The position numbers were made by a program, and so were the translations under genes. The notes beneath the pieces are model-generated. The model ran no database searches. It was not told where the DNA came from and worked only from the letters and a program-made list of their open reading frames with translations. From Myxococcales bacterium (GTDB lineage: Bacteria > UBA10199 > 2-02-FULL-44-16 > JAAZCA01): a DNA stretch of 64,000 nucleotides. This document shows, in pieces, positions 34,115 to 62,271 of the stretch (the stretch's first letter is position 1; each line of letters begins with the position of its first letter). The stretch spans positions 181,466 to 245,465 of the forward strand of contig JAAZCA010000029.1 in assembly GCA_012513515.1 (NCBI GenBank), given 5' to 3'.

Positions 34115-37100
34115 ATGAGAACGCCGGAAAAAGAGAGCTTCGCGGGATATACAGTCACGAAGCGGGATATAGCCCGTGGCTGCTCCAGTATGATCCACGA
34201 GGGGCTCTCTCACGACGGGAAAATAAGGGTCGCGATAAAAATACTGCGCCCTTCTAAAATTTCAAAAAACAGAATAGAGCGGTTCAAGGCCGAGTATAAA
34301 ACTCTCACAAAACTGAACCATCCGAACATAGCCAAAGTCCTTGAAGCGGGATTCAAGGAGGGCACCCCCTTCATAATTTCAGAGTTTATTGAGGGAAAGC
34401 AGATCCTCTCCGCGCTGGCCGGATATGAGATCGGCCGAATGATTCCGATATTTATAGAGCTGCTAAAGGGGCTGGATTTCATCCATCGAAGCGGAATGCT
34501 CCATCTGGATATCAAATCGCAGAACGTATTTGTAAACGCCAACGCAAAGGGAAATAGGTTAAAGATACTGGATTTCGGCCTGGCGATGCCGGAAAAAGAA
34601 TATCGTGGAGAATTCGTCGGAAGCCCTTCGACGATGGCCCCCGAAATAGCCTTGGGGCTGTCGGAAAAAGTCGGAAAGCGCTCGGACCTGTATTCCGCGG
34701 CAGTACTCATGTACCAGTGTTTGTCCAAGGGGAGGCATCCCTTCGACAGAACTCTTCAAAAATCGCGAGCTGAACTCATGAAGATGGTGGAAGCGGAAAA
34801 GGAAAAGCTCCCCGCGCCGCTGGATAGAGAGATCCCGGGATGGCTGGAGCTGCTCCTTTCCAGGATGCTCATCTTCGAACCTGAGGAACGGTTCTATGAA
34901 AACGCCGCCGGAGTCATACACGCCATCTCTTCAGGAAGGACGTCGGAAGCATCGCGCACATCAAGGGGTTCGCCCGAGTATCTAGTACCCGATCCGACGA
35001 AACTGGTAGGGCTTTCAGAAATTTCAAAAATCCTGACCTCCGAAATCGAAAAGAGCACAAGCGGAGATCTGCCGGAAAAGCCGCTGCATATCATATCCGG
35101 CGGCCACGGGATGGGAAAAAGCCACATAGTACATTTTCTCAAAACATTCGGAGACACGATCTCCGACAGAATATCGATCCACCGAATCTCCTTCCCCTCA
35201 GACGATGAGACGCTCAGCGAAAAGATTGCTGAGCTGCGCATATCGATATCGGACAATAAGTCCCCAATTCTCTTGCTCATCGACAACCTGGATGCTGCCG
35301 AAGGCAAAACACCGATAGAAGCTGAGGTCGAAAGGTTGATCTCCGGAATTTTTGCCTTCGCTGCAGCGCGTACCGAAAATCCGGAAATATATTCAGAAAT
35401 AATCCCCACGATCGTGGCAGCGACAGTTACGGAAATACAGAAGGTCGGATTTCTGAAAGAGATATTGGCTTCAGCGCTAAAACTCCACGAGCTAAAACCA
35501 TTCACAGCCTCTGATATAACGGAATACCTGGCGGCGACCCCGGCATTTTTCAGGCGACAGATCCCATCCGAAGCGACGCAGCACATACTTAAAATAACGG
35601 GCGGCATTCCGCTCGAGGTTAAAGAGCTTCTCTCCAAAAACTTTGAAGGCTTGTTCTCTTTCGATGCCGCAGGAGAAATAATCCTCGATCCCAAGATAAT
35701 CGCCCCATCCACCTTTAGGCATGGGGCATCTACCGCCTTTGAAAGGCTCTTGCATAAGATCAAAATTCTGGACCGCGACGAAATCAAGTTGCTTGAGTCG
35801 ATAGCCTGCTGCACGGCCGCACCGTATCTCGAGGCTCCAAAATTCCCGCTTTTAAAAAGGGTGACCGGATTGAAAGATATCGAAGAAATTTCTGAAAGGC
35901 TGATGCGCGCCGGCATACTGGAGATGGATCGAAAGGATAGGATTAAATTCTGTGACGAACATATGCCGGGGATGATCCTGATGAGGATGAACCCTGCGGA
36001 TAGAAAAAAACTACACTCCGAGCTGGTCAAACATGTCAGCTTAAGGTGGAAAAATTTTCACACGGCTCACGGCGAGGATGATAAAAAAGCGATCAAAGCC
36101 GCAATCACCCTCGGCAAAAAAATGTTGAAGAACCACGGCGACTGCTCCGCAGCCATCAAGCTTTACACATCAGCTTTGAAAAGAGGATCGGAGGCTCATT
36201 GGAAACTCCGCTCGTACATTTCATCCCTAATTGCGGCTGCGGCACTAAACACCGGAGACCTGACAAGAGCTGGCGAAGCCATTTATTCCGGCAGCAGAAT
36301 GATACCGGAGGGTGAATATCCTGCATACCGAAGGAGGTTCGCGCTCCTCGATATCGCCATGGCCCTGAGAGCCGGCACCCTCAATCACGCGCAGCGCCTC
36401 ATAGAATCATCTCGCCTTATTGCGGCAAAATCCCGCCTGGAGGACTACGACCTGGCTTTGAAAAATTACAATGGAAATCTTCTCTATGAGATGGCAATCA
36501 GAGATCCGTCCAAAGATGCGAAAAAACTGCTTGAGGCCAGAAAGATATTTGAAGGTTCGAAGTCCATGGAATTCCGACTAGCCCCCCATTCAAGAAAAAA
36601 AGTCATGAACAACCTCTTATATTCCGTGCTGACTGCGCAGGGCTTGTACGAAGAGGCCGCTCGAACTCTTGAATTTGAGATTTCCGGAAATAAACCCGAC
36701 ATATTTCATCTGATACCCGCGTATATGGCAATAGCAGAGGGGTTGCGAATCTCAGGAAAAACCGGACGCGCCCTTCTTTGGGCCAAAAGGGCGTTGAAGC
36801 TGGCCGGCAACGGGAATTCCGGACCGATGCTGGCCTATTCGCATGCAGTTCTTGCCAACATATTTTATGACATGGACGATTTTCAAAGATGTCTCGCCCA
36901 CTGCTCCAGCGAACTTGCATCGATAGCATGCCGGTCGGCGCACACGACACCAAACTCCATGGCCAGGATATGGTCGATGATGGGACGCTGTCATGGCGAA
37001 AGCGGAAATCACAGGAAGGCGATAGTCTATTTCGAGGCGGCCCTGGCATCAGCATCGGAGGGATATTTCGCGATGTCGGCATATCTGGGAATGGGCGAAG

Positions 37101-37249
37101 CCTACCTGTCGCTGGGAAAAAAGAAAACTGCGATGGAATACATAGGTTGCGCCGAAGCGATGCTAAAGACAATGCCCGTCGATGAGATTTCCAAATCGCA
37201 CCGGAAACGGGCGAAGCAGGTCAAAAAACTCATCAGGGATCAAATGTGA
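34115..37249 (+). CDS. Ser/Thr protein kinase - NTPase - TPR-like signalling protein, paralogue 1
   Basis: A 1044-residue soluble protein. Residues about 10-270 form a eukaryotic-type kinase: Lys in VAIKIL (42), HLDIKSQN (130-137, Arg of HRD replaced by Leu), DFG (153-155) and APE. The glycine loop is weak (RGCSSMIHEG). A STAND/AAA_16-like NTPase follows with Walker A GGHGMGKS (329-336) and Walker B PILLLIDNLD (384-393). The C-terminal 450 residues are helical repeats of TPR type (GRALLWAKRALKLAGNGNSG, ARIWSMMGRCHGESGNHRKA). A TTG at 34088 is an alternative start; the ATG at 34115 is chosen because it lines up with the start of the paralogue at 38772. The 3' end overlaps the convergent histidine kinase gene by 17 nt. 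Relatives in myxobacteria and cyanobacteria act in signalling; the target here is unknown. Confidence 0.85.
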   Translation: MRTPEKESFAGYTVTKRDIARGCSSMIHEGLSHDGKIRVAIKILRPSKISKNRIERFKAEYKTLTKLNHPNIAKVLEAGFKEGTPFIISEFIEGKQILSALAGYEIGRMIPIFIELLKGLDFIHRSGMLHLDIKSQNVFVNANAKGNRLKILDFGLAMPEKEYRGEFVGSPSTMAPEIALGLSEKVGKRSDLYSAAVLMYQCLSKGRHPFDRTLQKSRAELMKMVEAEKEKLPAPLDREIPGWLELLLSRMLIFEPEERFYENAAGVIHAISSGRTSEASRTSRGSPEYLVPDPTKLVGLSEISKILTSEIEKSTSGDLPEKPLHIISGGHGMGKSHIVHFLKTFGDTISDRISIHRISFPSDDETLSEKIAELRISISDNKSPILLLIDNLDAAEGKTPIEAEVERLISGIFAFAAARTENPEIYSEIIPTIVAATVTEIQKVGFLKEILASALKLHELKPFTASDITEYLAATPAFFRRQIPSEATQHILKITGGIPLEVKELLSKNFEGLFSFDAAGEIILDPKIIAPSTFRHGASTAFERLLHKIKILDRDEIKLLESIACCTAAPYLEAPKFPLLKRVTGLKDIEEISERLMRAGILEMDRKDRIKFCDEHMPGMILMRMNPADRKKLHSELVKHVSLRWKNFHTAHGEDDKKAIKAAITLGKKMLKNHGDCSAAIKLYTSALKRGSEAHWKLRSYISSLIAAAALNTGDLTRAGEAIYSGSRMIPEGEYPAYRRRFALLDIAMALRAGTLNHAQRLIESSRLIAAKSRLEDYDLALKNYNGNLLYEMAIRDPSKDAKKLLEARKIFEGSKSMEFRLAPHSRKKVMNNLLYSVLTAQGLYEEAARTLEFEISGNKPDIFHLIPAYMAIAEGLRISGKTGRALLWAKRALKLAGNGNSGPMLAYSHAVLANIFYDMDDFQRCLAHCSSELASIACRSAHTTPNSMARIWSMMGRCHGESGNHRKAIVYFEAALASASEGYFAMSAYLGMGEAYLSLGKKKTAMEYIGCAEAMLKTMPVDEISKSHRKRAKQVKKLIRDQM

Positions 37250-38117
37250 TTTCCCTCAGCATGGGCCACATTTCGAAGGCCGATGTCAGGCGGGATTTGA
37301 TGCGCGACATGTTGACCGAAGAACAGTCTCTCGCGATGGCGGCCACAAAGCTCGTCCTCTCTCCATCGGCACAGTCGAGCCAAAGATCGCCCATGTGCTT
37401 CCTGGCCGTTTCCTTCGCCGATGAAAGACCAAACCCGCTGCCACACTTCTTCCCCGAGCTGAATCCCCTCTCGAAAATTCGCTCGCGAATCTCATCGGAG
37501 ATTCCAACTCCGTCATCCGAAACCGAAAATCTGATTTCATCAGCACAGGAAGATGCGCAGATTTCCACCAGCCCTCCCCCTTCCGCAGCGGCCTCGATCG
37601 CATTTGTAACGAGATTATAAATCAGCGCCGAAATTTCCCCTCGGCGCAGAATTGCAAAAATGGAATCGGGGCCTATATAGTTAAGATGAACCTTTCTCCT
37701 CTCCGCGACAGGAGAAAGTTCCTGAATCACCTCGGAAACTATACCGGCAAAGTCGCAGCGAACCGGAACTTCATCCTGATCGAAAACTATACAGTTTCTT
37801 ATCTTGAGAAGGATATCCTCTATCTTCGAATAGGCGCGCTGCGCTATCGCTCCTATGTCCTCATCCGGAAGAATCTCAGCGCAGCGGTCAGGACCGACGG
37901 CGATGTATTCCCTTATGAAGGAAAGCGGGCCTGAGGCATCATGGGCGAACTGCCGCATCTTCGCCAAGATATCGTTAAGCGCTCCGCCGGACTCGCAGCT
38001 CCAGGCCGAAAGTGAAGAATCGAAGGTTTTACTCACTGCATCGCGAAAACTTCCCGCCTTGATTTTCAGCTTCAGGCCGGTATCCCTGTGCCTAATTTCA
38101 TAGATTCTCTGCTTCAT
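37233..38117 (-). CDS. orphan soluble histidine kinase
   Basis: The ATG at 38117 (weak GGAG 10 nt upstream) gives 294 residues; the frame opens at 38180. No membrane segment and no known sensory domain are seen in the first 65 residues. The dimerisation box is MRQFAHDASGPLSFIREYI with the likely phospho-acceptor His. The ATPase domain has the N box LVTNAIEAA, G1 DDGVGIS and G2 KKCGSGFGLSSAKETARKH. No response regulator gene lies in the window. It sits between the two kinase paralogues, tail to tail with the first (17-nt overlap) and divergent from the second. In some cyanobacterial proteins the same Ser/Thr kinase-NTPase arrangement is fused to a histidine kinase, so a functional link is plausible. 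Confidence 0.85.
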   Translation of the reverse strand: MKQRIYEIRHRDTGLKLKIKAGSFRDAVSKTFDSSLSAWSCESGGALNDILAKMRQFAHDASGPLSFIREYIAVGPDRCAEILPDEDIGAIAQRAYSKIEDILLKIRNCIVFDQDEVPVRCDFAGIVSEVIQELSPVAERRKVHLNYIGPDSIFAILRRGEISALIYNLVTNAIEAAAEGGGLVEICASSCADEIRFSVSDDGVGISDEIRERIFERGFSSGKKCGSGFGLSSAKETARKHMGDLWLDCADGERTSFVAAIARDCSSVNMSRIKSRLTSAFEMWPMLREITFDP

Positions 38118-38341
38118 AACTTGTACGCTCCCGACCGTCGCCATCCCCATTGGAAAGGACAAACCGGGGAGGAAGTGCAACCATCATGCCACATGCTGTG
38201 TAAGTATAAGTAATTGAAAAATCTAGCTAATTTGAAGAGAGAAAAAGGCGCGGCGGATTCGCATGGGAACTCTCCTCCCCCCTTTTCGGACAAAAAAGGG
38301 AAGAAGGGGTTTGAGATCGTAATCCTTATGCGGCCGCGCTG

Positions 38342-38608
38342 CCGTTCCAACAATAACTTCGACCATGGACAATTGACCATCGACTGACATCTCTAGCTTC
38401 TGTTTTTCCGCCAGTCACCAGTCACGGCTGTTACGGGATCCCCGATTAAAGCACTCGGGGATGACGACCACACTGTCATTCCCGCATGCTGTAAGCCGCC
38501 GCTACCGCGGGGTTCCGACCGTTCACCAGTAACGAGTCACGGTCGTTGCGGGGATGACAAGCGTATAGCTTTTAGAGGTGCCCTGAATTTGCTTATTTTT
38601 CAGAGGTT
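38342..38608. repeat. mosaic intergenic repeat island 4 in a 654-nt divergent gap
   Basis: The gap 38118-38771 separates the histidine kinase from kinase paralogue 2. Its right half is a repeat island. In order it holds the TTCGACCATGG and TTGACCA modules, CTAGCTTCTG, CACCAGTCACGG, the CCCCGA/TCGGGG hairpin and TTCCCGCATGCTG with CCGCTACCGCGGGG. GTTCACCAGTAACGAGTCAC and the right end TTTTTCAGAGGTT (to 38608) follow. The left inverted end is lost. The rest (38118-38341) is unassigned; the promoters of both flanking genes should be here, but no clear boxes were found. Confidence 0.82.
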
Positions 38609-38771
38609 GCTTAAATGAAATAATTGATAAGAGAGGTTTCAAAAGTCCAAAATAAATGTTAGATTTCACCCTCGAAAAAGCGGCATGGCCATCTTTGGGT
38701 CAGCGCCAAGGCAGGATCGAAAACGCAGTTGTCGTTGCAAGAGTGGAATGAAGGACGGGAGAATCCTCGCC

Positions 38772-41700
38772 ATGTCTGAAGCGAACGCGTTTGGCGGTTA
38801 CATAGTAACCCGGCCTGAGATTGCGCACGGGGGATCGGGACTCGTTCATGAAGGATCCGCCCCCGATGGCAAACGCCGAGTCGCAATCAAGGTCCTGGAC
38901 AAGGAACTCATAGAAAGAAATATACAGCGCGCATTAGCGCGAAAGCATCCTTCACTCGGAAATCGCCCTCTGGAGATAACTCAAGAGACCAGGCGGGCAT
39001 ACGAGATCAACGTAGAACGTTTCAAGATAGAATACAGAACGCTTCTCCAACTCGAGCATCCCAATATAGCGAGGGTCTTTGAAATAGGATTCAAGGAGGG
39101 CCACTTTTTCATAGTCTCGGAATTCGTCGACGGAAAACCACTCGCGCAGTACGTAAAGGGGTGGGAACCCTCCGAGATGATTCCACTGTTCGTGCAATTC
39201 CTAGAAGGACTCGACTTCATACACAGAAGCGGGCTCATACATCTCGATATCAAATCCGACAACATTCTCGTCGAAGAGGTGGAAGGATCCCCGAGGGTGA
39301 AGATAATCGACTTCGGCCTCGCTATGACCCCTTCCGAATATAGAGGAAGCTTCATAGGAACCATTTCTACGATGGCGCCGGAGGTGGCTCTCGGCCTACG
39401 CGAAAAGGTGAACTCCAAGTCAGACCTGTATTCGGCAGGGGTGGTCATGTACAACTGCATCACCTGGGGAGCTCATCCGTTCGAAAGGAGCGCAAGGGGA
39501 TCGCGCGACGCCATACGGAAAATGATCGACGGCGAGGAGTACATATCGCCGGATCCTCCATCGGCGGCACACAAGCAAAAAGGAAGATTCGTCCCTGACT
39601 TTCTGGACAAGATAATCCTGAAGCTTCTTTCATTCGAGCCTGAAAATAGGTTCTATCCAAACGCGCGTGCGGTAATAAACGCACTTCGGACTCATATGCC
39701 TGAAGCCTTCGGTGCGAAGGGTTCCTCAGAGGCCTCATATCTCCGCCCACCCGGACTTTCTCGCATAGGCCGCGAAAAGATATGTGACGAAATAGAACCC
39801 GATATCGATAGGGTGATTTCATCGGAGATCCCTAAGAATTCGCTCTATCACCTGACCGGCCCGGACGGGATCGGCAAATCACATCTCATCTCCTGTCTCA
39901 AAAGCACAGCGGAGATGGACGTCGAGAGAATAGCGCTGCATTCAATGACATTTCCGATGTCTGATGATCACATGCTCGAGTCGATAGCTCGCCTCGAGCG
40001 AGACATGGCGGAAAATTCCAAGCCTATCATCCTCTTCATGGATGATCTCCATGAACTCATACAAGGATCGGAAGCGGCCGACAGAGCTCTTAAAACGTTA
40101 AAGGGATTGGCATCGCTGTTTGTGGAACGCAGAAAAAATCAGAAACTCTATTCCGATCTAGCTCCCGTTCTGATGGTCGCGACATCAAAATCCGGCAGTG
40201 CGGTCGCGGATGGTTTGATGCCGGAACAGCTTGAATCGGTAAAATTCGAGATCCCGCCATTTAAAGCCGCCGATCTGAAGAGATATCTCAAGGCCACGCC
40301 GGCGCTCTCCGAAAGGGAAATCTCCTCTGCAACAATAGATCTCCTGATAGAACAGACTGCGGGAATACCGCAGGAGATAGTCGAGAGGCTGGAGGAGCTC
40401 GACAGCAAAAGTGCGCTTTTCGACGCATGCGGGGAGGTTGTTATTACCTCGCAGGAAATATCGCTCCGTCCGGAAAAACCCGCCAGCGGGTCAACGCGGG
40501 AGAGACTGCTTGCAAAATTTCACTCCCTCGAACCGGCTGAACGCGAAGCGGCGGAGATTGCCGCCTGTCTGGCATTCAAGCCCTTTCTTCCCCCTCCATC
40601 CGCCTCACTTATCATGAAGCTCTTAGACAGGACCACCTCCGCACAGACCATAAGGATGCTTTGCGACAAGGGAATACTGAGGCCTGCCAAGTCGAAAGCG
40701 GGAAGCGTTAAAGATCCTTACACCTTTGTCGATGAAGCCTACATGCCGGGGCTCATCCATTCTGAAATGGAAACCAAACGCCGCGAGATGCTCCACGACG
40801 CGATATTTCTTGAACTCGAGAAGCGCGGGAAAAAAAGCGAAGAATTCCAAAATGAACTCCTCCTTCATCTTGCCTTTTCCAGCGACACCCGGAGGGCGGC
40901 ATCTTCGGCGATCAAGCTCGGCAGGCGGATGCTAAACCACGAGGGCAAAGCCGCACTTGCGGTTGAACTCTTAGAGCTCGCGCTCCAAAAGATAGATGCG
41001 GAAAACTGGAAATTCCGATCGTATGTTCTGTCCCTCATATCGGGGGCTCATCTGAATCAGGATAGGTACACTGAGGCGGAACTCACAATAAGAGAGGCGC
41101 AGAAAATCACGCGAGAAAAATGCGGTTTTTGGCACGACCAAGTGACGTCCCTCGCGATAATAAAAACTCTGCGTGGCGGCGACCTCACTTCCGCAGGCAA
41201 GCTCATCGAAAAAGAAAAGAATTCATGTTCCGAATGCGACACGCTCTTTCGCAAGGCCTTCTTCATGAATTTCGAGGGACAGCTTTTCTACCACAGGGCA
41301 TATCGCGAACCACAACGTTCGAGGGAGTTGCTCGAAGAGTCAAAAAAACTTTTTGAAAAGAGCGCTGAGCTCGAGCAGCTCCTCCCTAAAAACCGCGTCG
41401 AGCTAATATCGAACAATCTGTTATACTCGGTTCTGATGTCGCTCGGAAATTATCGGGCGGCTGCTGCTAATCTTGAAAAACAGATCGAAGAAAAAAAGCT
41501 CGGCATATATTCGCTAAACTCGGCATACGTTACGCTCGCTGAAATATACAGGCTCTCCGGAAACTTCGATAAGGCTCTTCTCTGGGCGAGAAAGGCCCTG
41601 AGGCTCGCTGAAAGCAAGCTCGCCGGCTTTCCGCTGCTGCAGGTTCATGCGACGCTGGCCAACATATTCTATGATCAGGGCGACTACCCGCGCTGCATGG

Positions 41701-42170
41701 AGGAATGCAACAAACAGATATCGGCCAGCGCATGCCTGGGCGGTGAAAACTACGCCCTCTTTGCGGCACGCGTATGGTCACTGATGGGAAGATGCTGCAA
41801 CGAGATGGGGGACTACAATAAGGCGATACTATATTTTGAAGCGGCGCTCGCCGGCGACCGCCGCGACTTCTTCACCATGTCGGCCATGGAAGGGCTTGGC
41901 GAAGCCCACTTCGGCAATGGAAATTTCGAAGAGATGGAAAAATGCTTCGAGGAGGCCGATCGCATGCTTTCTGGAATGCCGGAGGACGTCTCATCGAATT
42001 CGCACCGCTATCGAATCCTGCTTCTGCGCGCGCGCGCAAAACTCTCATCGGGGGAGACAGACGATCTCGAATCCCTCCTCTCCGGCCTCAAGAAATACTC
42101 TCACGGCGACAAGGCGCATGAAGAGGAAATTTCCGAGATCGAAGAACGCATGGCAGAAATACTACGGTAA
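38772..42170 (+). CDS. Ser/Thr protein kinase - NTPase - TPR-like signalling protein, paralogue 2
   Basis: A 1132-residue soluble protein with the same plan as the product of 34115-37249. The kinase domain has a proper glycine loop (HGGSGLVHEG), VAIK (Lys40), HLDIKSDN (157-164), DFG (180-182) and APE. About 35 extra residues (45-80) lie between the Lys strand and helix C. Walker A is GPDGIGKS (363-370), Walker B PIILFMDDL. The C-terminal half is TPR-like (GNFDKALLWARKALRLAESK, LMGRCCNEMGDYNKAILYFE). Upstream in-frame ATGs exist at 38748 and 38685; GGGAG precedes the chosen one by 10 nt. The stop is followed directly by GTGAACGGTGAACGG of island 5. Duplication from paralogue 1 or the reverse is clear; specific targets are unknown. 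Confidence 0.86.
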   Translation: MSEANAFGGYIVTRPEIAHGGSGLVHEGSAPDGKRRVAIKVLDKELIERNIQRALARKHPSLGNRPLEITQETRRAYEINVERFKIEYRTLLQLEHPNIARVFEIGFKEGHFFIVSEFVDGKPLAQYVKGWEPSEMIPLFVQFLEGLDFIHRSGLIHLDIKSDNILVEEVEGSPRVKIIDFGLAMTPSEYRGSFIGTISTMAPEVALGLREKVNSKSDLYSAGVVMYNCITWGAHPFERSARGSRDAIRKMIDGEEYISPDPPSAAHKQKGRFVPDFLDKIILKLLSFEPENRFYPNARAVINALRTHMPEAFGAKGSSEASYLRPPGLSRIGREKICDEIEPDIDRVISSEIPKNSLYHLTGPDGIGKSHLISCLKSTAEMDVERIALHSMTFPMSDDHMLESIARLERDMAENSKPIILFMDDLHELIQGSEAADRALKTLKGLASLFVERRKNQKLYSDLAPVLMVATSKSGSAVADGLMPEQLESVKFEIPPFKAADLKRYLKATPALSEREISSATIDLLIEQTAGIPQEIVERLEELDSKSALFDACGEVVITSQEISLRPEKPASGSTRERLLAKFHSLEPAEREAAEIAACLAFKPFLPPPSASLIMKLLDRTTSAQTIRMLCDKGILRPAKSKAGSVKDPYTFVDEAYMPGLIHSEMETKRREMLHDAIFLELEKRGKKSEEFQNELLLHLAFSSDTRRAASSAIKLGRRMLNHEGKAALAVELLELALQKIDAENWKFRSYVLSLISGAHLNQDRYTEAELTIREAQKITREKCGFWHDQVTSLAIIKTLRGGDLTSAGKLIEKEKNSCSECDTLFRKAFFMNFEGQLFYHRAYREPQRSRELLEESKKLFEKSAELEQLLPKNRVELISNNLLYSVLMSLGNYRAAAANLEKQIEEKKLGIYSLNSAYVTLAEIYRLSGNFDKALLWARKALRLAESKLAGFPLLQVHATLANIFYDQGDYPRCMEECNKQISASACLGGENYALFAARVWSLMGRCCNEMGDYNKAILYFEAALAGDRRDFFTMSAMEGLGEAHFGNGNFEEMEKCFEEADRMLSGMPEDVSSNSHRYRILLLRARAKLSSGETDDLESLLSGLKKYSHGDKAHEEEISEIEERMAEILR

Positions 42171-42267
42171 ATAGTGAACGGTGAACGGAAACCCACATCT
42201 TCATTGCGAGCGTCAAGCGAAGCAATCCCGTTCCAACCGTTCACCAGTCACGAGTCACCAGTCACGG
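42171..42267. repeat. mosaic intergenic repeat island 5 between convergent genes
   Basis: It begins at the plus-strand kinase stop with GTGAACGGTGAACGG. It passes CATTGCGAGCG/CGAAGCAATCCC (a hairpin type found in many bacterial genomes) and ends with GTTCACCAGTCACGAGTCAC and CAGTCACGG. The last unit supplies the TGA stop of the minus-strand TPR lipoprotein gene. Heptamer modules thus point inward from both convergent stop codons. Confidence 0.8.
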
Positions 42268-43065
42268 CAGTTCCTTACTTTTTCGCGCCCTGTTCATATA
42301 GTCATCGGCCTCTGCGTCGCGACCGAGGGCTCGGTTCACCCGCGCGAGGGCATCCAAATCTTTGGAGATCCCCGCAGAATATTCGACCAGCTTGTCTTCA
42401 GCAAGAGCACGATCATACCCTTGCAGGGCGGCCTCAAAATCCCCCTCTTTTTCAGCGAGCCTCCCCAGCGAATAGTGAGATGTCGCGGAAAGGCGGTGAA
42501 GTTTTTTAGGAATCGATATCGCCAGCGATTGGGAGAGTTTGTCGCGAGCAGAGGCAAGCTCTCCCGATTCGATATCGATAAGGGCCTCGTTACTTAGAAC
42601 GGTCGCGACCCCCTCGCCGTCCTTAGCGTCGCGATATCTCTTCATCGCTTCTAAAAATGAGCTACGAGCAGATACTAAATCATCTTTTGCCATCTGCGCA
42701 CTGCCGATATTATTCAAGTTCGCCCCTGCCCCCTTCAAATTTCCTATCCTGTCGTTGATCTCCAATGCCTCGCGAAATTTCGTGCAGGCATCGTCGTAAC
42801 TGCCTGCGACAAGATACAGCTGGCCAAGATTGTTCAGGCTTTCGGCGACCCCTTCCTCATGATCTATCCTCTCGGATATCGAGAGAGCGCGACCGTAGAA
42901 CCTGGCGGCATCATCGTAGCGCCCCTGATAGTAAAACTCGTTTCCGCGAAGGTTGAGGCGCTTAACATCGACCTTTATCGTATCGACCGTGGAAGCTCTC
43001 TTTCCGCCGCCACACCCTGCCATTGCTATCGTCAGCAGCGCAGCAATTATCATTATCAGCTTCAC
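42262..43065 (-). CDS. TPR-repeat lipoprotein
   Basis: The natural start is probably the GTG at 43065, 4 nt after AAGGAGG; the frame is open to 43110. The 267-residue product has a lipoprotein signal (MIIAALLTIAMAGC). Five or six TPR units follow (GNEFYYQGRYDDAARFYGRA, LNNLGQLYLVAGSYDDACTK, LGRLAEKEGDFEAALQGYDR). It should be anchored in a membrane facing the periplasm and act as a protein scaffold. It is the last gene after mlaE-mlaF-mlaD, separated from mlaD by repeat island 6, so a part in the same lipid transport system is possible. The final Pro codon and TGA stop are formed by the repeat unit CCGTGACTGG. Confidence 0.85.
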   Translation of the reverse strand: MKLIMIIAALLTIAMAGCGGGKRASTVDTIKVDVKRLNLRGNEFYYQGRYDDAARFYGRALSISERIDHEEGVAESLNNLGQLYLVAGSYDDACTKFREALEINDRIGNLKGAGANLNNIGSAQMAKDDLVSARSSFLEAMKRYRDAKDGEGVATVLSNEALIDIESGELASARDKLSQSLAISIPKKLHRLSATSHYSLGRLAEKEGDFEAALQGYDRALAEDKLVEYSAGISKDLDALARVNRALGRDAEADDYMNRARKSKELP

Positions 43066-43080
43066 ATAACCTCCTTTTTT

Positions 43081-43097
43081 TCCGGGAACGCGTACCG
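43081..43097 (-). repeat. 5' leader motif, copy A (before TPR lipoprotein)
   Basis: TCCGGGAACGCGTACCG lies 16 nt before the GTG start of the lipoprotein gene. An almost identical 17-nt motif stands before mlaD at 44154-44170. ACGCGT is palindromic. It could be an operator or a second edge type of the repeat islands. Confidence 0.5.
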
Positions 43098-43120
43098 TTT
43101 GTCTCCCCAATTGGATAAGG

Positions 43121-43337
43121 TTGAGGTTACAGAAGCTAGAGTCTAGAAGTCAGAAGCGAGATTTCTAATCTCCGCTTTTTCTAGCTTCTAGCCTCTGTTT
43201 TTCCCAGTCACGGCTGTTGCGGGATCCCCGATTACAGCACTCGGGGATGACACCATGAACGTCATTCCCGCGGTCTTAAGCCGCCGCTACCGCGGGGTTC
43301 CAACCGCTCACCAGTCACGAGTCACAAGTCACGGCTT
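43121..43337. repeat. mosaic intergenic repeat island 6
   Basis: It fills the space between the mlaD stop and the leader of the TPR lipoprotein. On the minus strand it reads AAAGCCGTGACTTGTGACTC right from the mlaD TAA stop. GGTGAGCGGTTGG, the CGCGGTAGCGGCGG and CGGGAATGAC hairpin, the CCCCGAGTG/ATCGGGGATCC hairpin and CTAGAAG heptamers follow, ending in AACCTCAACC. Confidence 0.85.
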
Positions 43338-44141
43338 TTACGGCCGGGCTTCAAACTTGAGCGTCGAGTCCTGTTTTATCTGCTGCTTGATATTTCCGCG
43401 CAGCAGAAAACTTTTCTGCAGGGCCAGCGTTACCTTGTTAACCTCTTCAAGCCCGCGACGCGCCTCGACTATCGCGTCCCTGATCTCAGGACTCGCTTTA
43501 TCGACCTCGCCAAGAATATGATTCAGATGCCCCATCGCCGAACTCAATTTATCGTAAAGATCGCGGCGCTCGAGGAGAAGTTTCATGCTGGAGTCATTTT
43601 TCGTCATCGCATCAACTATTCCCTTCGTGGCCGTGCTTACGTTGGCAAGGGAAAGCATGAGATCCCCTTTGGGATCGCCGAGGGCCGCTATCAGCGAAGT
43701 CGCCTGTTCTATCAGGTCATCAAGGCCTGCTGCCTCCGCCCCTTCGGTCGGAATAAGACTGCCGGGCGCAAGTGCTGGAGCGGCTGGATCGCCGGGGATC
43801 AGAGCCATCACAGCAGAGCCTACGATTGGACGCAGAACTCTGACACTACTACCTTCCCTGACTCTGTCGGCATACTGATCGAAAAGCTGAATCTGCATCT
43901 CTACACGATTATTCGAATCTAGCACAACGCGCCCTATCCGACCGGCCTCCAGATCGTTGATGACGACGAGCGAGCCTGGCTTCAAACCAGAAGCGCTTTG
44001 AAGATTTGCCGTGTAACGAACATACCCCTGAAACCAGCGCTGCCCGCGTGCGACGAGCATCAGGAGCACGACTACCATCAGTGCGGCGATGATGACGAAA
44101 AGGCCGACTATCTTTTGAAGATGTTTGAATTTAAAAATCAT
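43338..44141 (-). CDS. mlaD: MCE-domain lipid transport protein, MlaD-like
   Basis: Periplasmic substrate-binding component of an Mla-type lipid transporter. The 267-residue product has one N-terminal membrane anchor (about 11-30). An MCE domain follows (FQGYVRYTANLQSASGLKPG, VVINDLEAGRIGRVVLDSNN, SSVRVLRPIVGSAVMALIPG). A helical C-terminal region (about 150-260) may form a needle or coiled coil. The stop codon is joined directly to repeat island 6. It is separated from mlaF by island 7, although the three genes normally form one tight operon. Confidence 0.88.
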   Translation of the reverse strand: MIFKFKHLQKIVGLFVIIAALMVVVLLMLVARGQRWFQGYVRYTANLQSASGLKPGSLVVINDLEAGRIGRVVLDSNNRVEMQIQLFDQYADRVREGSSVRVLRPIVGSAVMALIPGDPAAPALAPGSLIPTEGAEAAGLDDLIEQATSLIAALGDPKGDLMLSLANVSTATKGIVDAMTKNDSSMKLLLERRDLYDKLSSAMGHLNHILGEVDKASPEIRDAIVEARRGLEEVNKVTLALQKSFLLRGNIKQQIKQDSTLKFEARP

Positions 44142-44153
44142 AATTTCTCCTCA

Positions 44154-44170
44154 TTCCGGGGACGCGTACC
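44154..44170 (-). repeat. 5' leader motif, copy B (before mlaD)
   Basis: TTCCGGGGACGCGTACC, 13 nt before the mlaD ATG, matches the motif before the TPR lipoprotein gene (43081-43097) in all but two positions. Both are in the same orientation relative to their gene. Confidence 0.5.
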
Positions 44171-44172
44171 CG

Positions 44173-44322
44173 CTTCGCGTGAACATACCCCCGCTGATAG
44201 TCACGGCAGCTAGTGGATCCCCGTCAACATCATGCGGGGACGACAATCACAGCGCCATTCCCGCAGTTGTAGGCGGGAATCCCGTTCCGACCGTTCACCA
44301 GTTACGAGTCACAAGTCACGGT
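44173..44322. repeat. mosaic intergenic repeat island 7
   Basis: It fills the mlaF-mlaD gap. On the minus strand it starts inside the mlaF stop (AAACCGTGACTTGTGACTCG). GGTGAACGGTCGG, GGATTCCCGCCTAC/GCGGGAATGGC, ATGATGTTGACGGGGATCC and GCTGCCGTGACT follow. The CTAGAAG module is missing in this short copy. Confidence 0.83.
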
Positions 44323-44957
44323 TTTATCTCCACCACCCTATCCACCAGCGGTTCAAGAAAAGTGAGATCGCCCGAAGCGATGAGACATAGCGCTCCGGCA
44401 TCCCTCTTTTTTCTCAAAATCTCGGAAAAAAGTTTTTTGTAGCGCCCGTCCGAGACCTGATTCGGCTCGTCGCAGAAAAATGCGCCCTTGGCGCAAATTT
44501 CGGCGCGAAGCAGTGAGACGCGGCGCTTTATGCCATATGAGAGGGCCGCAGGAATCATCATCGAATACTCGCCGAGCCCGCCTCGCACGATGGCATCAGC
44601 TGCAAACTTGGCAGCGGCAGATTTATCTCCCATGGAATATTCCACCGGCAGCTGTAAATTCCGCTCGACGCTCATATTTGAAATTAAAGCTGCATCCTGA
44701 AAATCGAAGCCTGTCTTTCCCCTTAGAGAGTTCATCTCACGGTTGCCCAGCGACCAAAAATCATCCCCATCGACCCGAATTACACCGCAAATAGGCCGTA
44801 GAAGGAGTGAAATAATTTTCAGGAGAGTGCTTTTCCCGCATCCTGAAGATCCCACGATGCCAACGATCTCTCCCGACTGAAAGCGGTCGGAAAAATCCTC
44901 TATCAGAAGACGCCCGCCATCGTACCTAAATGAAACATTTTCAAGGGAAATCTCCAA
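44316..44957 (-). CDS. mlaF: ABC transporter ATPase, MlaF-like, with altered motifs
   Basis: Cytoplasmic ATPase expected to drive the MlaE permease. The 213-residue product has Walker A GSSGCGKSTLL, a Q-loop region (FDFQDAALISNMSVERNL) and Walker B AFFCDEP. Two motifs are unusual. The signature reads LSYGIKRRVSL instead of LSGGxxxR. The H-loop reads LIASGDLTF, so the switch His of the usual SHD is Gly. Length is below the roughly 250 residues of common MlaF proteins. Context (13 nt after mlaE, before mlaD) supports the assignment. The final Lys-Pro-stop is encoded by the repeat unit AAACCGTGACT. ATP turnover may be slow or need a partner; that is inference. Confidence 0.82.
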   Translation of the reverse strand: MEISLENVSFRYDGGRLLIEDFSDRFQSGEIVGIVGSSGCGKSTLLKIISLLLRPICGVIRVDGDDFWSLGNREMNSLRGKTGFDFQDAALISNMSVERNLQLPVEYSMGDKSAAAKFAADAIVRGGLGEYSMMIPAALSYGIKRRVSLLRAEICAKGAFFCDEPNQVSDGRYKKLFSEILRKKRDAGALCLIASGDLTFLEPLVDRVVEIKP

Positions 44958-44969
44958 ATCAAGACTCCT

Positions 44970-45755
44970 TCAGATGTAGAAAAAAAGTGTTATCAATATA
45001 TTGGACAAAAAGCAGAGGTATATCGATGTAACTACGGCCTTGGTAGTCACCTGCGGAATCTCGGTAAAGGAATATCTGACTGTGAAACCAGCGTAACAAC
45101 ATATCGTGGCTACGATCACGCCAAAGACTGCGCATTTGACTCCGCTGACGGCGACGTCCCAGAATCCTATGGCCGCGGAGAGATTGGCGATATAAGTCCC
45201 AAAAGGTATATCGACCATGAACCTAGCGAAAAAGTATCCTCCGAAAAGTGCAATTGTGTTGAAATAAAAGGATAGCGCAGCGATAGCGACCGCAACCCCT
45301 ATAATCCTAGGAAGAGCGATGAAACGCAGCGGGTTTATTCCCATAGATTCTATCGCTTCGACCTCGTGATTTACCGTCATATAACCTATTTCAGTTGAAA
45401 TTGCGGTGCCGGATCGTCCGATGACGATAAAGGCTGTAAGCAGCGGACCGAGCTCCCGGACAACGACTATAACCAGGATAGTGCCAATCGCCGACTCCCC
45501 CCCCAATCCGGGAAGTATGGAAAAAGTTTCAAGGATGACGACTCCACCGATTATAAGAGCTATGGCAGTGATTATTTTCAAAGCCTCCACACCGGTAAAG
45601 AGAATCTGCCGCATGATGATGTCTAAAACCATCGCGGGTGCAACTCTCCTCTCGCACCATGCGCTTTTTAGGATTAATACAAAAAAAGCCCCTAGCTCCG
45701 AAATTTTGGAGAGAGTGGCGATTGATACAGCGCCTGTTCTGTCGAGAAAAGACAT
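44970..45755 (-). CDS. mlaE: MlaE-type ABC transporter permease
   Basis: Inner-membrane permease for phospholipid or sterol-like substrates between the membranes. The 261-residue product has an interfacial N-terminal helix and about five membrane segments. It has the MlaE landmarks VVRELGPLLTAFIVIGRSGT and GYMTVNHEVEAIESMGINPL, with AISTEI between them. Length is standard. No Shine-Dalgarno site precedes the ATG, and a promoter with its -10 box only 6 nt upstream suggests a leaderless message. It is the first gene of the mla group. Confidence 0.93.
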   Translation of the reverse strand: MSFLDRTGAVSIATLSKISELGAFFVLILKSAWCERRVAPAMVLDIIMRQILFTGVEALKIITAIALIIGGVVILETFSILPGLGGESAIGTILVIVVVRELGPLLTAFIVIGRSGTAISTEIGYMTVNHEVEAIESMGINPLRFIALPRIIGVAVAIAALSFYFNTIALFGGYFFARFMVDIPFGTYIANLSAAIGFWDVAVSGVKCAVFGVIVATICCYAGFTVRYSFTEIPQVTTKAVVTSIYLCFLSNILITLFFYI

Positions 45756-51506: not shown

Positions 51507-51542
51507 GTTTATATCCTCAAGTGAAGCTAGGCCGAAAATACC

Positions 51543-51734
51543 GACCATGAACAATTGACCATCGACCGACATCTCTAGCTTCTGTTTTTCCGCCAGTCAC
51601 CAGTTACGGTTGTTACGGGATCCCCGATTAAAGCACTCGGGGATGACGACCATACTGTCATTCCCGCATGATTTAAGCCGCCGCTACCGCGGGGTTCCGA
51701 CCGTTCACCAGTTACGAGTCACCAGTCACGGCTT
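51543..51734. repeat. mosaic intergenic repeat island 10
   Basis: On the minus strand it starts at the wecA-like stop with AAAGCCGTGACTGGTGACTC. GGTGAACGGTCGG, CGCGGTAGCGGCGG with CGGGAATGAC, ATCCCCGAGTG/ATCGGGGATCC, CGTAACTGGTGACTGG and CAGAAGCTAGAG follow. It ends in GGTCAATTGTTCATGGTCGG about 37 nt before the dxs start. Confidence 0.87.
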
Positions 51735-54909: not shown

Positions 54910-56040
54910 CTACTTCCTCTGCAATGCAAGTATCGTAGCCGAGGCGGAGAGGCCGAAGCTCGCGATACTGACCATAAATGTAATCCATCCCGTCGGGCTC
55001 AGCCAGCGCTCCTTTACGGATATGCTGTCACCCGGATTTACAACCATCCCATCGACCCCTTTTCTAACCTTTCCATCGGGGGCAATGATCTTGATCTTAC
55101 TGACCTTGCCTCTCTCCGAGACACCGCCTGCGAGGGAGAGGTACTGCGAAAGGTTATAGTGTGGGCTGAATGGATACGCCCCAGGAAATTTAACCCCGCC
55201 AAGAACGAAGACCCTATCTTCATATGATGGATAAAAAGGCTGCTCGCCGGGGAGACTCTCCACATTAAAATCGAATTCGTTTTGTGCCGTAATCACATTA
55301 GGAACAAATACCACATCGCCATTCAGGATATCGAAGGAGGAAAGGCTGACCGAATCGTTATTCACATCGATAACGTCCTTACTGCCATTCTTAAACCTTA
55401 CGACCTTTATGGGGAGGGACATATCAACGCCAGCGGTGAAATCGCCAGCGAGCTCTATAAGCGCCTTCAGATTCCTCTCATTTTTAAGCTCATATATATT
55501 CGGTCTTCTAACCGATCCGGCGATCTGGACCACATCCTTCCTAAGCGGAATAAAGATAACGTCATTTTCCATCAGATAGGGGTTATTTTCGAGATTTCCG
55601 TAAAGCTCATATGAAAGAAGATCGATCGGAATAGATCGCCCATCCCGTTTGAGCTGTATGTGGCGAAGCGAACCGACAAAGGTGACATCCCCGGCCTGTT
55701 TGACGGCATCTGATAGCCTGGTGGATGCCGAGACCTGATATGTACCGGGCTCACCAACCTCACCAAGGACATGGATCTGATAGGCGGACATGCTCATGAC
55801 GCCGCCAATCCCGGACCTCGAATAATCGGTCAAACCCTGTTGCGAAAGGCCGGATCTATCCCCCCCAAACCCGCCAGACTGGGAGGGGTCAGCTCCATCA
55901 GCCTGATAAGTTCGAAAGCTGGGCTTGGTAGCCGCACCCTGTTTAGCTCTGGTAGGAACCTGCGCATAGGCCGTTAAAGAGGTGAAAAATATAAAATTAA
56001 GAGCCATAAAGGCGCTGACGGATCTGAGATGTTTTCTCAT
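54910..56040 (-). CDS. SLBB-domain polysaccharide export protein, Wza-like
   Basis: Periplasmic/outer-membrane export component for surface polysaccharide. The ATG at 56040 (AGGGGG 4 nt upstream) gives 376 residues with a cleavable signal peptide ending TSLTAYA-Q. SLBB beta-grasp repeats follow (IHVLGEVGEPGTYQVSASTR, VQIAGSVRRPNIYELKNERN, VFVLGGVKFPGAYPFSPHYN). No lipobox Cys is present, unlike E. coli Wza. The C-terminus is a hydrophobic helix (GWITFMVSIASFGLSASATI) that could cross a membrane. The N-terminal Poly_export motif is not clear. Gene order wza-wzz-wecA is consistent with a capsule or O-antigen type system. Confidence 0.85.
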   Translation of the reverse strand: MRKHLRSVSAFMALNFIFFTSLTAYAQVPTRAKQGAATKPSFRTYQADGADPSQSGGFGGDRSGLSQQGLTDYSRSGIGGVMSMSAYQIHVLGEVGEPGTYQVSASTRLSDAVKQAGDVTFVGSLRHIQLKRDGRSIPIDLLSYELYGNLENNPYLMENDVIFIPLRKDVVQIAGSVRRPNIYELKNERNLKALIELAGDFTAGVDMSLPIKVVRFKNGSKDVIDVNNDSVSLSSFDILNGDVVFVPNVITAQNEFDFNVESLPGEQPFYPSYEDRVFVLGGVKFPGAYPFSPHYNLSQYLSLAGGVSERGKVSKIKIIAPDGKVRKGVDGMVVNPGDSISVKERWLSPTGWITFMVSIASFGLSASATILALQRK

Positions 56041-56147
56041 ATAACCCCCTGGAAACAAAGAATTTTTGCTGGTATACATGAGGAAATCTTCAAGTCAAGC
56101 AATTATATGTGATTGAAATTGAAGGGGAAATATCGAGACGAAGGCTG

Positions 56148-56203
56148 AGGTTGGGATTGAGGTTACAGAAGCCAGAATCTAAAGGCCAGCCATGAGTCAC
56201 GGC
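56148..56203. repeat. fragmentary repeat island 13
   Basis: A short copy after the ugd stop: GAGCCGTGACTCATGGCTGG, then TTAGATTCTGGCTTCTG and AACCTCAATCCCAACC on the minus strand. Only the GTGACT and CTAGATTCTGG modules remain. Confidence 0.65.
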
Positions 56204-56205
56204 TC

Positions 56206-57528
56206 TCACACTCCAACCCCGCAATATACAAACCCCCTCTCCTCCATCTCGGATCTCCGATATATGTTCCTGAAATCGAAGAAGTGATTTCCTTTCATGG
56301 ATTTCTTTACGCGATCCAGGTCGAGGCTGCGAAACTGGTTCCATTCGGTAAGTATCATCACCGCATCGGCACCCTCGATCGCCGCATATTCATCCGAACA
56401 ATAGGTGATATGTTCCTTCATATTTTCAAGGCGCCATTTCGCCTCGCCGATCGCCTTGGGATCGTAGGCGGAAAAATGCGCCCCGCGCGCCGCCAGATCG
56501 TTCATGATCGTGATGGCCGGACTCTCGCGCATATCGTCGGTATTAGGCTTGAAGGCCAAGCCCAAGACGGCGATCCTCTTTCCCTTAAGATCGCCCATCG
56601 TCGCGGCAACCTTTTCGGCCATGAGGCGCTTCTGTTTCTCGTTACTCTCGATGCTCTGCTCTACCAGATAGAGCCTTGCCTCGAGCTTCTTTCCGATATC
56701 TGCCAGCGCCTTCGTATCCTTCGGAAAGCAGCTCCCGCCGTATCCTGGGCCGGCATGGAGAAACTTCGGACTGATTCTGCCATCTTTCCCCATCGCCCTG
56801 GCGACATCCTGAACGTTTGCCCCCACCTTCTCGCAGAGATTGGCGATCTCATTTATAAATGTGATCTTCATCGCCAGAAAGGCGTTCGATGCGTATTTGA
56901 TCATCTCAGCAGTTTCCAGATTCGTTTCAACGAATGGGGTTTCATTCAGATAGAGCACCCTGTACACATCCTTCATCATCGAGATCGCCCTCTCACTTTC
57001 AGCCCCCACAACCACGCGATCCGGATGCGTGAAGTCCTGCACCGCCGACCCCTCGCGCAGAAATTCCGGGTTACTAACGACATCGAACGGATGATCTACA
57101 TTCCTGTTTTTCAACTCCTCGGAGATCCAGCCCTTCACCTTTTGCCCAGTCCCGATCGGCACCGTGCTCTTGTCGACTACGACCTTATAGCCGTTCATCG
57201 CGCGCGCGATCTCACGGGCAGCATCCTCGACATGTTTAAGATCCGCGCTTCCATCCTCGGCCGGAGGAGTTCCAACGGCTATAAAAACGATGTCACAGTT
57301 TTTAACCGCCTCGCGCGTATCGGTAGTAAACTTTATCCTTCCGTAATAGCGATTGCGTTCCACGATCGGAAGAAGCCCCGGCTCATAGATGGGAGTCTCA
57401 CCGTTATTCAGCTTCTCGATCTTCTTTGGATCACTGTCAACACACACGACGTGATGCCCGAAGTCTGAAAGACAGACTCCAGTGACAAGGCCTACATACC
57501 CGGTTCCGATTACAGCGATGTTGGACAT
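56206..57528 (-). CDS. ugd: UDP-glucose 6-dehydrogenase
   Basis: Oxidises UDP-glucose to UDP-glucuronate for polysaccharide synthesis, with 2 NAD. The 440-residue product has the NAD-binding start VIGTGYVGLVTGVCLSDFGH, the linker STVPIGTGQKVKGWI, and the catalytic Cys in GYGGSCFPKDTKALADIGK. The C-terminal domain has LGLAFKPNTDDMRESPAITI. Length is standard. It is preceded by a 254-nt gap, and its stop is followed by a remnant repeat. Confidence 0.95.
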   Translation of the reverse strand: MSNIAVIGTGYVGLVTGVCLSDFGHHVVCVDSDPKKIEKLNNGETPIYEPGLLPIVERNRYYGRIKFTTDTREAVKNCDIVFIAVGTPPAEDGSADLKHVEDAAREIARAMNGYKVVVDKSTVPIGTGQKVKGWISEELKNRNVDHPFDVVSNPEFLREGSAVQDFTHPDRVVVGAESERAISMMKDVYRVLYLNETPFVETNLETAEMIKYASNAFLAMKITFINEIANLCEKVGANVQDVARAMGKDGRISPKFLHAGPGYGGSCFPKDTKALADIGKKLEARLYLVEQSIESNEKQKRLMAEKVAATMGDLKGKRIAVLGLAFKPNTDDMRESPAITIMNDLAARGAHFSAYDPKAIGEAKWRLENMKEHITYCSDEYAAIEGADAVMILTEWNQFRSLDLDRVKKSMKGNHFFDFRNIYRRSEMEERGFVYCGVGV

Positions 57529-57782
57529 ATTGAGCTCCTATGATAAATAAGTTAAACCAAACTTAGGGGAAATCGGCGTAAGGCGTAGGGCGTAAGGAAA
57601 AACAGCTGCCCTTCTAATTTAGTCTCTTAAACCAAAGTCTTTTGCAAAAAGACCCTCGTTTATTTTATGATAAATAAAAACGGCCAAGTCCTTTGAGCGT
57701 TGTCACACTTTCAATTCCTGATATTTACCCATAAAAACACCCTATCAAAATCTTGCCACTACCCTAAAAAGCCTTACGCCTT
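57529..57782. other. 254-nt spacer with heptamer fragment 14
   Basis: Near 57567-57600 the plus strand reads CGGCGTAAGGCGTAGGGCGT, about four GGCGTAA heptamers, followed by AAGGAAAAACAG. The remainder is AT-rich. The ugd promoter is probably here, but no clear box pair was chosen. The last bases before the next stop (GCCTTACGCCTTTCAC) again look like the heptamer. Confidence 0.6.
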
Positions 57783-59051
57783 TCACAGCCTTCCATCCAC
57801 AACATCTCTCGGCAAAAAGCCTCTTACATCGAAGACATAAGCGGAGTCGCTCTTAAACGATGAGATGTCGTATTTTTTAAATTCTGAATGTCCCACGGCT
57901 AGGACGATTGCATCGTATTTTGTATCTGGAAGTTTACTGGTAAGCTCTATGCCATATTCGCGATACACATCTTTTGCATCCACCAACGGGTCATGAACAT
58001 CGACAGTACATCCAAAATCCTTCAACCCATTGATCACATCTACCACCTTTGAATTTCTAATGTCAGGACAGTTTTCCTTAAATGTAATACCTAGAACAAG
58101 AATTCGCGATGAAGGGACTTTATGTCCTTTGTGGATCATTCCCTTCACAACCTGTTCTGCCACATGAGCGCCCATGTTGTCGTTAAGGCGTCGCCCCGCT
58201 AGGATGATTTCAGGATTATGCCCAAGCTCCTGCGCCTTATGTGTAAGATAGTAAGGATCAACACCTATGCAGTGACCTCCCACAAGCCCAGGCCGGAAAT
58301 TTAAGAAATTCCATTTGCTCCCAGCTGCGTCTAAAACCTCGTGCGTGTCTATTCCGACCTTTCTGAATATCTGAGAAAGTTCATTCACAAACGCTATATT
58401 TATATCGCGCTGCGTATTTTCTATAACCTTGGCAGCCTCGGCAACCTTTATAGATGATGCCTTAAAAGTGCCAGCGACGATGATTGAGCGATACAACTCA
58501 TCGACAATATCAGCGGTCTCCGCAGTGCTTCCGCTGGTCACTTTTTTAATTTTTGTGACAGTATGTTCCTTGTCGCCTGGGTTTATCCTCTCCGGGCTAT
58601 AACCGCAGAAAAAATCCTTATTGAACTTGAGACCGCTCTCTCTTTCCAAAACGGGAACGCATTCCTCTTCTGTACATCCGGGATAGACGGTTGACTCATA
58701 TACTACAATATCACCAGATTTCAGATATTTTCCAACCGTGCGCGTAGCGCTTATTATCGGGGTGAGATCAGGCCTGTTGTGTTTGTCGACGGGAGTTGGA
58801 ACCGTAATGATGTAAAAATTTCCATCCTTTATGCCATCGGCCTCGCAGGTAAGTTTCAGTCTCGTTGCAGACTTCAACTGATCCGCAGTTGTCTCCCTAG
58901 TACTATCGTGAAATCTGGAGAGCTCATCCACCCTGTTTTTTGAGATATCAAAACCTATGGTTTTATATTTTTTCCCAAATTCAACGGCCAAAGGAAGCCC
59001 GACATAACCGAGGCCTATTACAACGATTGTTTTGTTTGAAAGATCAGACAT
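57783..59051 (-). CDS. UDP-N-acetylhexosamine dehydrogenase (WbpA/TviB/WecC-type)
   Basis: Oxidises a UDP-HexNAc to the uronic acid for surface glycans. The 422-residue product has VIGLGYVGLPLAVEFGKKYK, ITVPTPVDKHNRPDLTPI, YESTVYPGCTEEECVPVLE and the catalytic Cys in GLVGGHCIGVDPYYLTHKA. The C-terminal LGITFKENCPDIRNSKVVDV is also typical. The sequence type resembles TviB/WbpA (UDP-GlcNAc or GalNAc) more than Ugd. Stop and start spacing (8 nt) ties it to the glycosyltransferase upstream, so the unit at 57.8-64 kb is one operon. Confidence 0.92.
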   Translation of the reverse strand: MSDLSNKTIVVIGLGYVGLPLAVEFGKKYKTIGFDISKNRVDELSRFHDSTRETTADQLKSATRLKLTCEADGIKDGNFYIITVPTPVDKHNRPDLTPIISATRTVGKYLKSGDIVVYESTVYPGCTEEECVPVLERESGLKFNKDFFCGYSPERINPGDKEHTVTKIKKVTSGSTAETADIVDELYRSIIVAGTFKASSIKVAEAAKVIENTQRDINIAFVNELSQIFRKVGIDTHEVLDAAGSKWNFLNFRPGLVGGHCIGVDPYYLTHKAQELGHNPEIILAGRRLNDNMGAHVAEQVVKGMIHKGHKVPSSRILVLGITFKENCPDIRNSKVVDVINGLKDFGCTVDVHDPLVDAKDVYREYGIELTSKLPDTKYDAIVLAVGHSEFKKYDISSFKSDSAYVFDVRGFLPRDVVDGRL

Positions 59052-59059
59052 TTTAACCG

Positions 59060-59806: not shown

Positions 59807-59808
59807 AA

Positions 59809-62270: not shown

Positions 62271-62271
62271 T

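Follow-up and report, generated by a model that had tools for sequence, protein, structure and literature searches.

The window analysed here, a 64-kb stretch of contig C29 from a draft genome of 1.79 Mb, contains two large genes on the forward strand, P0001 and P0002, with a histidine kinase (HK) gene between them on the opposite strand (Table 1). The two giant proteins, of 1044 and 1132 residues, are paralogues (38% identity, E 1.9e-199), and a chance finding was dismissed because of this paralogy and the homologues present in seven other genomes. The HK gene converges on P0001, with the stops overlapping by 17 nt, and diverges from P0002 across a spacer of ~650 nt. A hydrophobic-segment check gave no membrane segment in either giant or in the HK. 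The first-pass annotation had described such a pair of paralogues, each with a non-RD Ser/Thr kinase, a STAND/AAA_16-like NTPase and TPR-like repeats, placed around a membrane-free HK that has no response regulator; this anatomy is borne out by the results given below.

Table 1. Features of the P0001-HK-P0002 locus (window positions) and loci beside giants or near their modules in other genomes (L-prefixed positions)
Feature	Position	Strand	Basis
P0001, giant 1: kinase-STAND NTPase-TPR, fast-evolving duplicate	34115..37249	+	ORF, Pfam, model, tree
P0001 kinase domain, ~residues 10-275	34142..34939	+	Pfam, conserved motifs
P0001 predicted NOD (NBD, helical domain, winged helix), ~residues 289-640	34979..36034	+	Motifs, AlphaFold
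P0001 Walker A, GGHGMGKSH	35099..35125	+	Alignment
P0001 GxP motif, GIP (STAND hallmark)	35603..35611	+	G497, P499 invariant
P0001 predicted arm and TPR superhelix	36035..37246	+	Pfam, AlphaFold, Foldseek
Soluble HK, 294 aa from ATG 38117	37233..38117	-	Pfam, alignment, boxes
HK C-terminal tail TFDP, family motif T-L/F-D	37236..37247	-	Tail comparison
Spacer between HK and P0002, with dispersed intergenic repeat 38360-38540	38118..38771		Repeat search
P0002, giant 2: kinase-STAND NTPase-TPR, slower-evolving, orthologue-like	38772..42170	+	ORF, Pfam, tree
P0002 kinase domain, ~residues 8-310, family insert between beta3 and alphaC	38793..39701	+	Pfam, alignment
P0002 predicted NOD (NBD, helical domain, winged helix)	39747..40841	+	Motifs, AlphaFold, Foldseek
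P0002 Walker A, GPDGIGKSH	39858..39884	+	Alignment
P0002 putative arm and TPR sensor region	40842..42167	+	Pfam
Subtilase/FG-GAP and beta-helix loci	L032:7839-12541, L031:4628-9468, L037:6329-10778, L040:12199-16952		
YD-shell/RHS-like fragments	L031:3018-4184, L032:12779-13696, L138:4677-5357, L037:3-623		

The repeat in the spacer has a 96% copy at 51542-51722. Dispersed intergenic repeats of this kind, ~30-180 nt long and on both strands, also follow P0002, and shorter copies lie near 16.4-16.6, 28.6-28.7, 31.5-31.9, 42.2, 43.2, 44.3, 45.9, 53.2-53.5 and 54.8 kb; those flanking P0002 could have aided local rearrangement. Past the end of P0002, the minus strand (42262-45755) encodes a TPR protein with a lipoprotein-like N-terminus and then an MlaD-domain protein, accompanied by ATPase- and permease-like ORFs in an Mla/Mce-type cluster. 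Towards its right-hand edge (56001-64000) the window becomes poorer in G+C, 0.44 and further on 0.33, compared with ~0.51 over the rest.

The N-terminal domains of both giants are Pfam Pkinase domains (E 9.6e-36 for P0001 and 9.8e-33 for P0002) with the Hanks-type fold and the catalytic Lys, Asp and Asn residues; the VAIK, HLDIK..N, DFG and APE motifs are intact in both proteins. The nucleotide-binding Gly-loop is degenerate in P0001 alone, its second glycine having been lost (GCSS). HLD replaces HRD in both giants and in all nine aligned family members, so that the non-RD state is a family trait.

The NTPase region is recognised less readily by family profiles. AAA_16 falls below the Pfam cut-off of 32.6 bits in both giants (14.7 in P0001, 28.4 in P0002), which counts against our preferred reading. 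A profile search was the check that the first-pass annotation had proposed for this domain, and PF00004 AAA does exceed its cut-off in P0002 (30.4 versus 21.2). Walker A (GxxGxGK(S/T)H) and Walker B (hhhhD(D/N)) motifs are present in all nine giant-family homologues, the GxP motif is invariant in all nine as T-x-G-x-P, and TPR families score above the Pfam cut-offs in P0001 and P0002. AlphaFold models (pLDDT 78 for full-length P0001, 81 for the P0002 NOD) predict an NBD, a helical domain, a winged helix and a long helical superhelix. Foldseek matched the full P0001 model best to PH0952 (6mfv; E 2.6e-13 over 769 columns), a STAND protein that has a TPR sensor, and the P0002 NOD alone matched RuvB, ORC1 and CED-4, all NBD-lid-winged-helix proteins, with Z 16 against ORC in a structure comparison. 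Kinases dominated a VIA-align comparison of the full P0001 model, which barely probed the region past the kinase. With a P-loop NBD, a GxP motif, an arm and TPRs following the NOD, and a winged helix taken from the predicted fold, the giants have the characters by which STAND proteins are defined (PMC6468293), as judged from their sequences and models.

The HK has a HATPase_c domain (E 2e-19, Pfam) and complete H, N, G1, F and G2 boxes (H-box AHDASGPL). Its likely start is the ATG given in Table 1, although the open frame runs for 315 aa from a TTG at 38180, in which numbering the candidate phospho-accepting residue is His80. Pfam searches gave no receiver domain among the neighbouring window proteins searched, and neither a receiver nor a phosphotransfer domain in the giants. 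A 45-residue N-terminal module is common to the window HK and the HKs of genome G026, whose Cys-rich insert is missing from the window HK.

True orthologues of the giants occur in eight of 46 genomes, namely the window genome and seven others. These 46 represent the window phylum and all belong to one class; phylum-wide and class searches return the same set. Against a profile built from nine giants, full-length members scored at least 1355 bits and three pieces cut by contig ends 343-832, versus at most 407 for other kinase-AAA-TPR proteins. Besides the window pair, the family includes two giants in G001, one each in G006, G026, G036 and G038, one whole and one partial in G033, and fragments in G007. 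A scan of 85k genomes with P0001 as a single sequence found no relative, and an alignment scan returned mainly generic kinases among the matches listed; the distribution given here applies within the phylum. P0001 and P0002 are sisters in the tree (100/98), beside the G001 giants, with branch lengths of 0.97 and 0.20, respectively; their position and branch lengths point to a duplication in or near the window lineage, followed by fast change of P0001.

Comparison of these genomes brought out two further partners. A family of kinase-like proteins of ~310-330 aa is encoded in all seven other giant genomes and in none of the 38 giant-free genomes, and its gene immediately precedes a giant gene, in the same orientation, in G001 (twice), G006, G007, G033, G036 and G038. 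Loss of the catalytic Lys and replacement of the catalytic Asp by Asn in nine of nine members mark these proteins as pseudokinases. Since giants and pseudokinases form sister groups in the tree (96/92), the pseudokinase probably stems from an older duplication of the kinase domain. The second partner is a PP2C phosphatase, whose gene adjoins the pseudokinase in G001 (twice), G006, G007 and contig C121 of G033, and adjoins the HK gene in G026. No pseudokinase of this family was found in the window genome (draft, 99.3% complete), which encodes five Ser/Thr kinases; its one PP2C gene is on another contig, and the product shares 38-39% identity with the module PP2Cs of G006 and G001. The window copy of the module is a derived one, marked by duplication of the giant, rapid divergence of one duplicate, loss of the pseudokinase and a sole PP2C gene outside the locus.

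Two other neighbours of giants were considered as parts of the module and rejected. An FHA protein with a sigma-54 activator domain is encoded beside the G006 module PP2C (L033:7855-9492) and might be a phospho-Thr reader, but it is not kept at other modules, its homologues being confined to G006 and G014 among the 46 genomes, so it was dropped as a conserved output. In G036, G038 and (twice) G001, giants have as neighbours a subtilase with FG-GAP repeats and a beta-helix protein; many giant-free genomes have the subtilase too, however, and the window-genome homologue is alone on a 3.1-kb contig (C41). Fragments resembling teneurin YD-shell or RHS proteins lie near the G001 kinase module, and similar-looking ones were seen by eye in G007 and G036.

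The HK family to which the window protein belongs (A2) is sharply delimited by score (at least 288 bits; next best 196), with moderate clade support (89/77), a point we count against our preferred reading. Its eight members are found in the window genome, G001 (two), G007, G026 (two), G033 and G038. The family is thus present in five of the seven other giant genomes and in none of the 38 giant-free ones (Fisher 1.7e-5); because the A2 profile was seeded partly from giant genomes, genomes were also ranked by the window HK alone (rank test p 2.8e-5), and both values are optimistic, since the genomes are related. In G038 the HK gene is divergent to a pseudokinase-giant operon; G026 has a PP2C-HK pair in divergent arrangement with a pseudokinase gene, and a second HK-PP2C pair elsewhere. 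The first-pass annotation had tied the HK to the giants, a link that homologues never found together would have undone; in relatives they do occur together, and the HK adjoins the pseudokinase in the two cases just named. Several observations nevertheless count against the preferred reading. The window HK is on the strand opposite to both giants, each of the two G001 giant clusters has one HK at a distance of 10-12 kb, HK and giant are on different contigs in G033, and a profile search found no A2-family HK in G006 and G036, which have a giant.

HK and PP2C are unrelated proteins, yet their C-terminal tails are often alike. T-[LF]-D occurs within the last 20 residues of seven of the eight A2-family HKs versus none of 32 other HKs. 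The looser pattern [DE].?T[LIF], sought in the last 12 residues, is found in six of eight HKs and five of eight PP2Cs versus eight of 319 other ORFs; those eight include some module proteins, among them a ninth PP2C, a partial one, with SEETIP as its end. Examples from module PP2Cs are EDTLDFE, EDTLNFE, DDTLI, SEETIR and EITIE. Eight of 11 pseudokinase tails have T[LIF] but not the acidic part. The motif is missing from the window PP2C and from the C-terminal end of the G038 HK, and we count this against the preferred reading as well. Since it was spotted by eye before being counted, in sequences that are related, the motif is a lead rather than proof; it suggests that the acidic-Thr-hydrophobic tail is a common phospho-acceptor or docking peptide. 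A 165-aa ORF adjoining the pseudokinase and PP2C genes in G033 (L257:4998-5495) also has an acidic-Thr ending (AMEDTI).

On balance, and with modest confidence, the giants appear to be soluble STAND Ser/Thr kinase switches that belong to a conserved module coupled to the HK. By analogy with MalT, PH0952 and PknK, the resting giant would be an ADP-bound, autoinhibited monomer. An inducer would bind the TPR/arm region, whereupon the NOD would exchange ADP for ATP and oligomerise, bringing the N-terminal kinase domains together so that trans-phosphorylation could switch them on. The pseudokinase may serve as an allosteric partner or scaffold, and the PP2C as an off-switch. The giant probably phosphorylates the Thr in the short acidic C-terminal tail of HK and PP2C, and Ser/Thr phosphorylation may in turn set the activity of the HK towards a response regulator encoded elsewhere; conservation of the HK tail is our reason for favouring this direction over one from HK to giant. 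In the window lineage, the diverging giant copy perhaps assumes the role of the lost pseudokinase. That STAND kinase, dead kinase, PP2C and soluble HK form one switch in all these respects, with the giant phosphorylating or docking on the common tail and a duplicate giant replacing the pseudokinase, is a tentative proposal that we think possible rather than probable.

Signalling might instead run the other way, with the HK as an input that phosphorylates, binds or competes for the giants, so that a sensor drives the kinase pair without a response regulator. The co-occurrence of the A2 family with giants would fit this, as would the lack of a receiver domain in the neighbouring proteins tested, and the HK could sense through the short N-terminal module that the G026 HKs also have. 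The giants, however, have no Pfam receiver or phosphotransfer domain, and the conserved tail of the HK is more suggestive of a target or docking peptide, which makes this arrangement rather unlikely. We assign a similarly low likelihood to the view that the giants are ordinary PknK-like STAND kinases and the HK a functionally unrelated orphan, the clustering reflecting only co-inheritance in a genomic island. The opposite strands and the repeat-filled spacer, the genomes with a giant and no HK or with the HK on another contig, and the patchy distribution of the whole set all agree with that view, but the HK is again a neighbour of the module, in other gene orders, in G038 and G026, both G001 copies have an HK nearby, and a tail motif is common to HK and PP2C.

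Two suggestions of the first-pass annotation fared less well. One was that the locus resembles a split version of the Ser/Thr kinase-ATPase-HK fusions of cyanobacteria and myxobacteria, compared here as the HstK type, which includes GAF. Such fusions exist (PMC2176072) and the same catalytic activities are gathered here at one locus, in three separate genes; no GAF domain was found by Pfam in any of the three proteins. Long fused proteins of the phylum have GAF and a sigma-54 activator instead of an HK and are not matched by the HK profile; in a tree whose fused members all come from the phylum, their kinase domains form a separate group, so that we regard a split origin as highly improbable. 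Examples of these fused proteins, with Ser/Thr kinase, AAA, TPR, GAF and sigma-54 activator in one chain of ~1670-1690 aa, are encoded at L234:1350-6371 and L232:2217-7280, and kinase-holding open frames of similar length are found in many genomes of the phylum. The other suggestion, a defence role, taken here as an anti-phage or other conflict system with STAND recognition and a kinase effector, gained no support and seems very unlikely. STAND and kinase parts do occur in defence, the distribution is patchy, YD-shell fragments lie near some copies and PADLOC kinase models match; those matches are limited to the generic kinase domain (systems compared: PD-T4-6, MADS and Mokosh), the window neighbours are housekeeping or transport genes with no defence partner among those searched, and no toxin or nuclease effector was seen.

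Among bacterial STANDs, transcription activators and serine-threonine kinases predominate (PMC6468293), and PknK is a named example of the latter (PMC4381067). PknK of M. tuberculosis resembles the giants in being soluble and in carrying a Ser/Thr kinase at the N-terminus ahead of a MalT-like STAND NTPase region (PMC4381067, PMC4601284). No module of pseudokinase, PP2C and soluble HK is described for it, however, and the window giants differ from it in forming a duplicated pair, in their diverged NOD and in the family insert of their kinase domain. PH0952 and MalT share the NBD-HD-WHD-arm-TPR order (PMC6468293); PH0952 lacks an N-terminal kinase effector and the effector of MalT is DNA-binding, whereas that of the giants is a kinase. 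HstK-type cyanobacterial dual kinases likewise have Ser/Thr and histidine kinases in one system (PMC2176072), as one polypeptide with GAF rather than as separate proteins with a TPR sensor. The L234 and L232 activators have the kinase-AAA-TPR half in common with the giants, but their output is the fused sigma-54 activator and their kinase belongs to the other group. The kinase-STAND-TPR architecture and each component are therefore of known kind; the module context is new. No description of a module with a pseudokinase and a common tail was found in the open-access papers searched; as the relatives show, the module is an undescribed and patchily inherited one in which a dead kinase and a phosphatase are normally included too.

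Although STAND Ser/Thr kinases, PknK among them, occur widely, what induces them and which proteins they act with directly is known for few. The recurrent, compact module seen here, which brings together pseudokinase, phosphatase and a soluble HK with a matching tail, yields concrete predictions of partners and sites for such kinases. If the broader proposal is true, Ser/Thr and His phosphorylation would be coupled between separate proteins. The module also offers a case in which to examine how Ser/Thr and histidine kinases influence one another and how pseudokinases control bacterial kinases.
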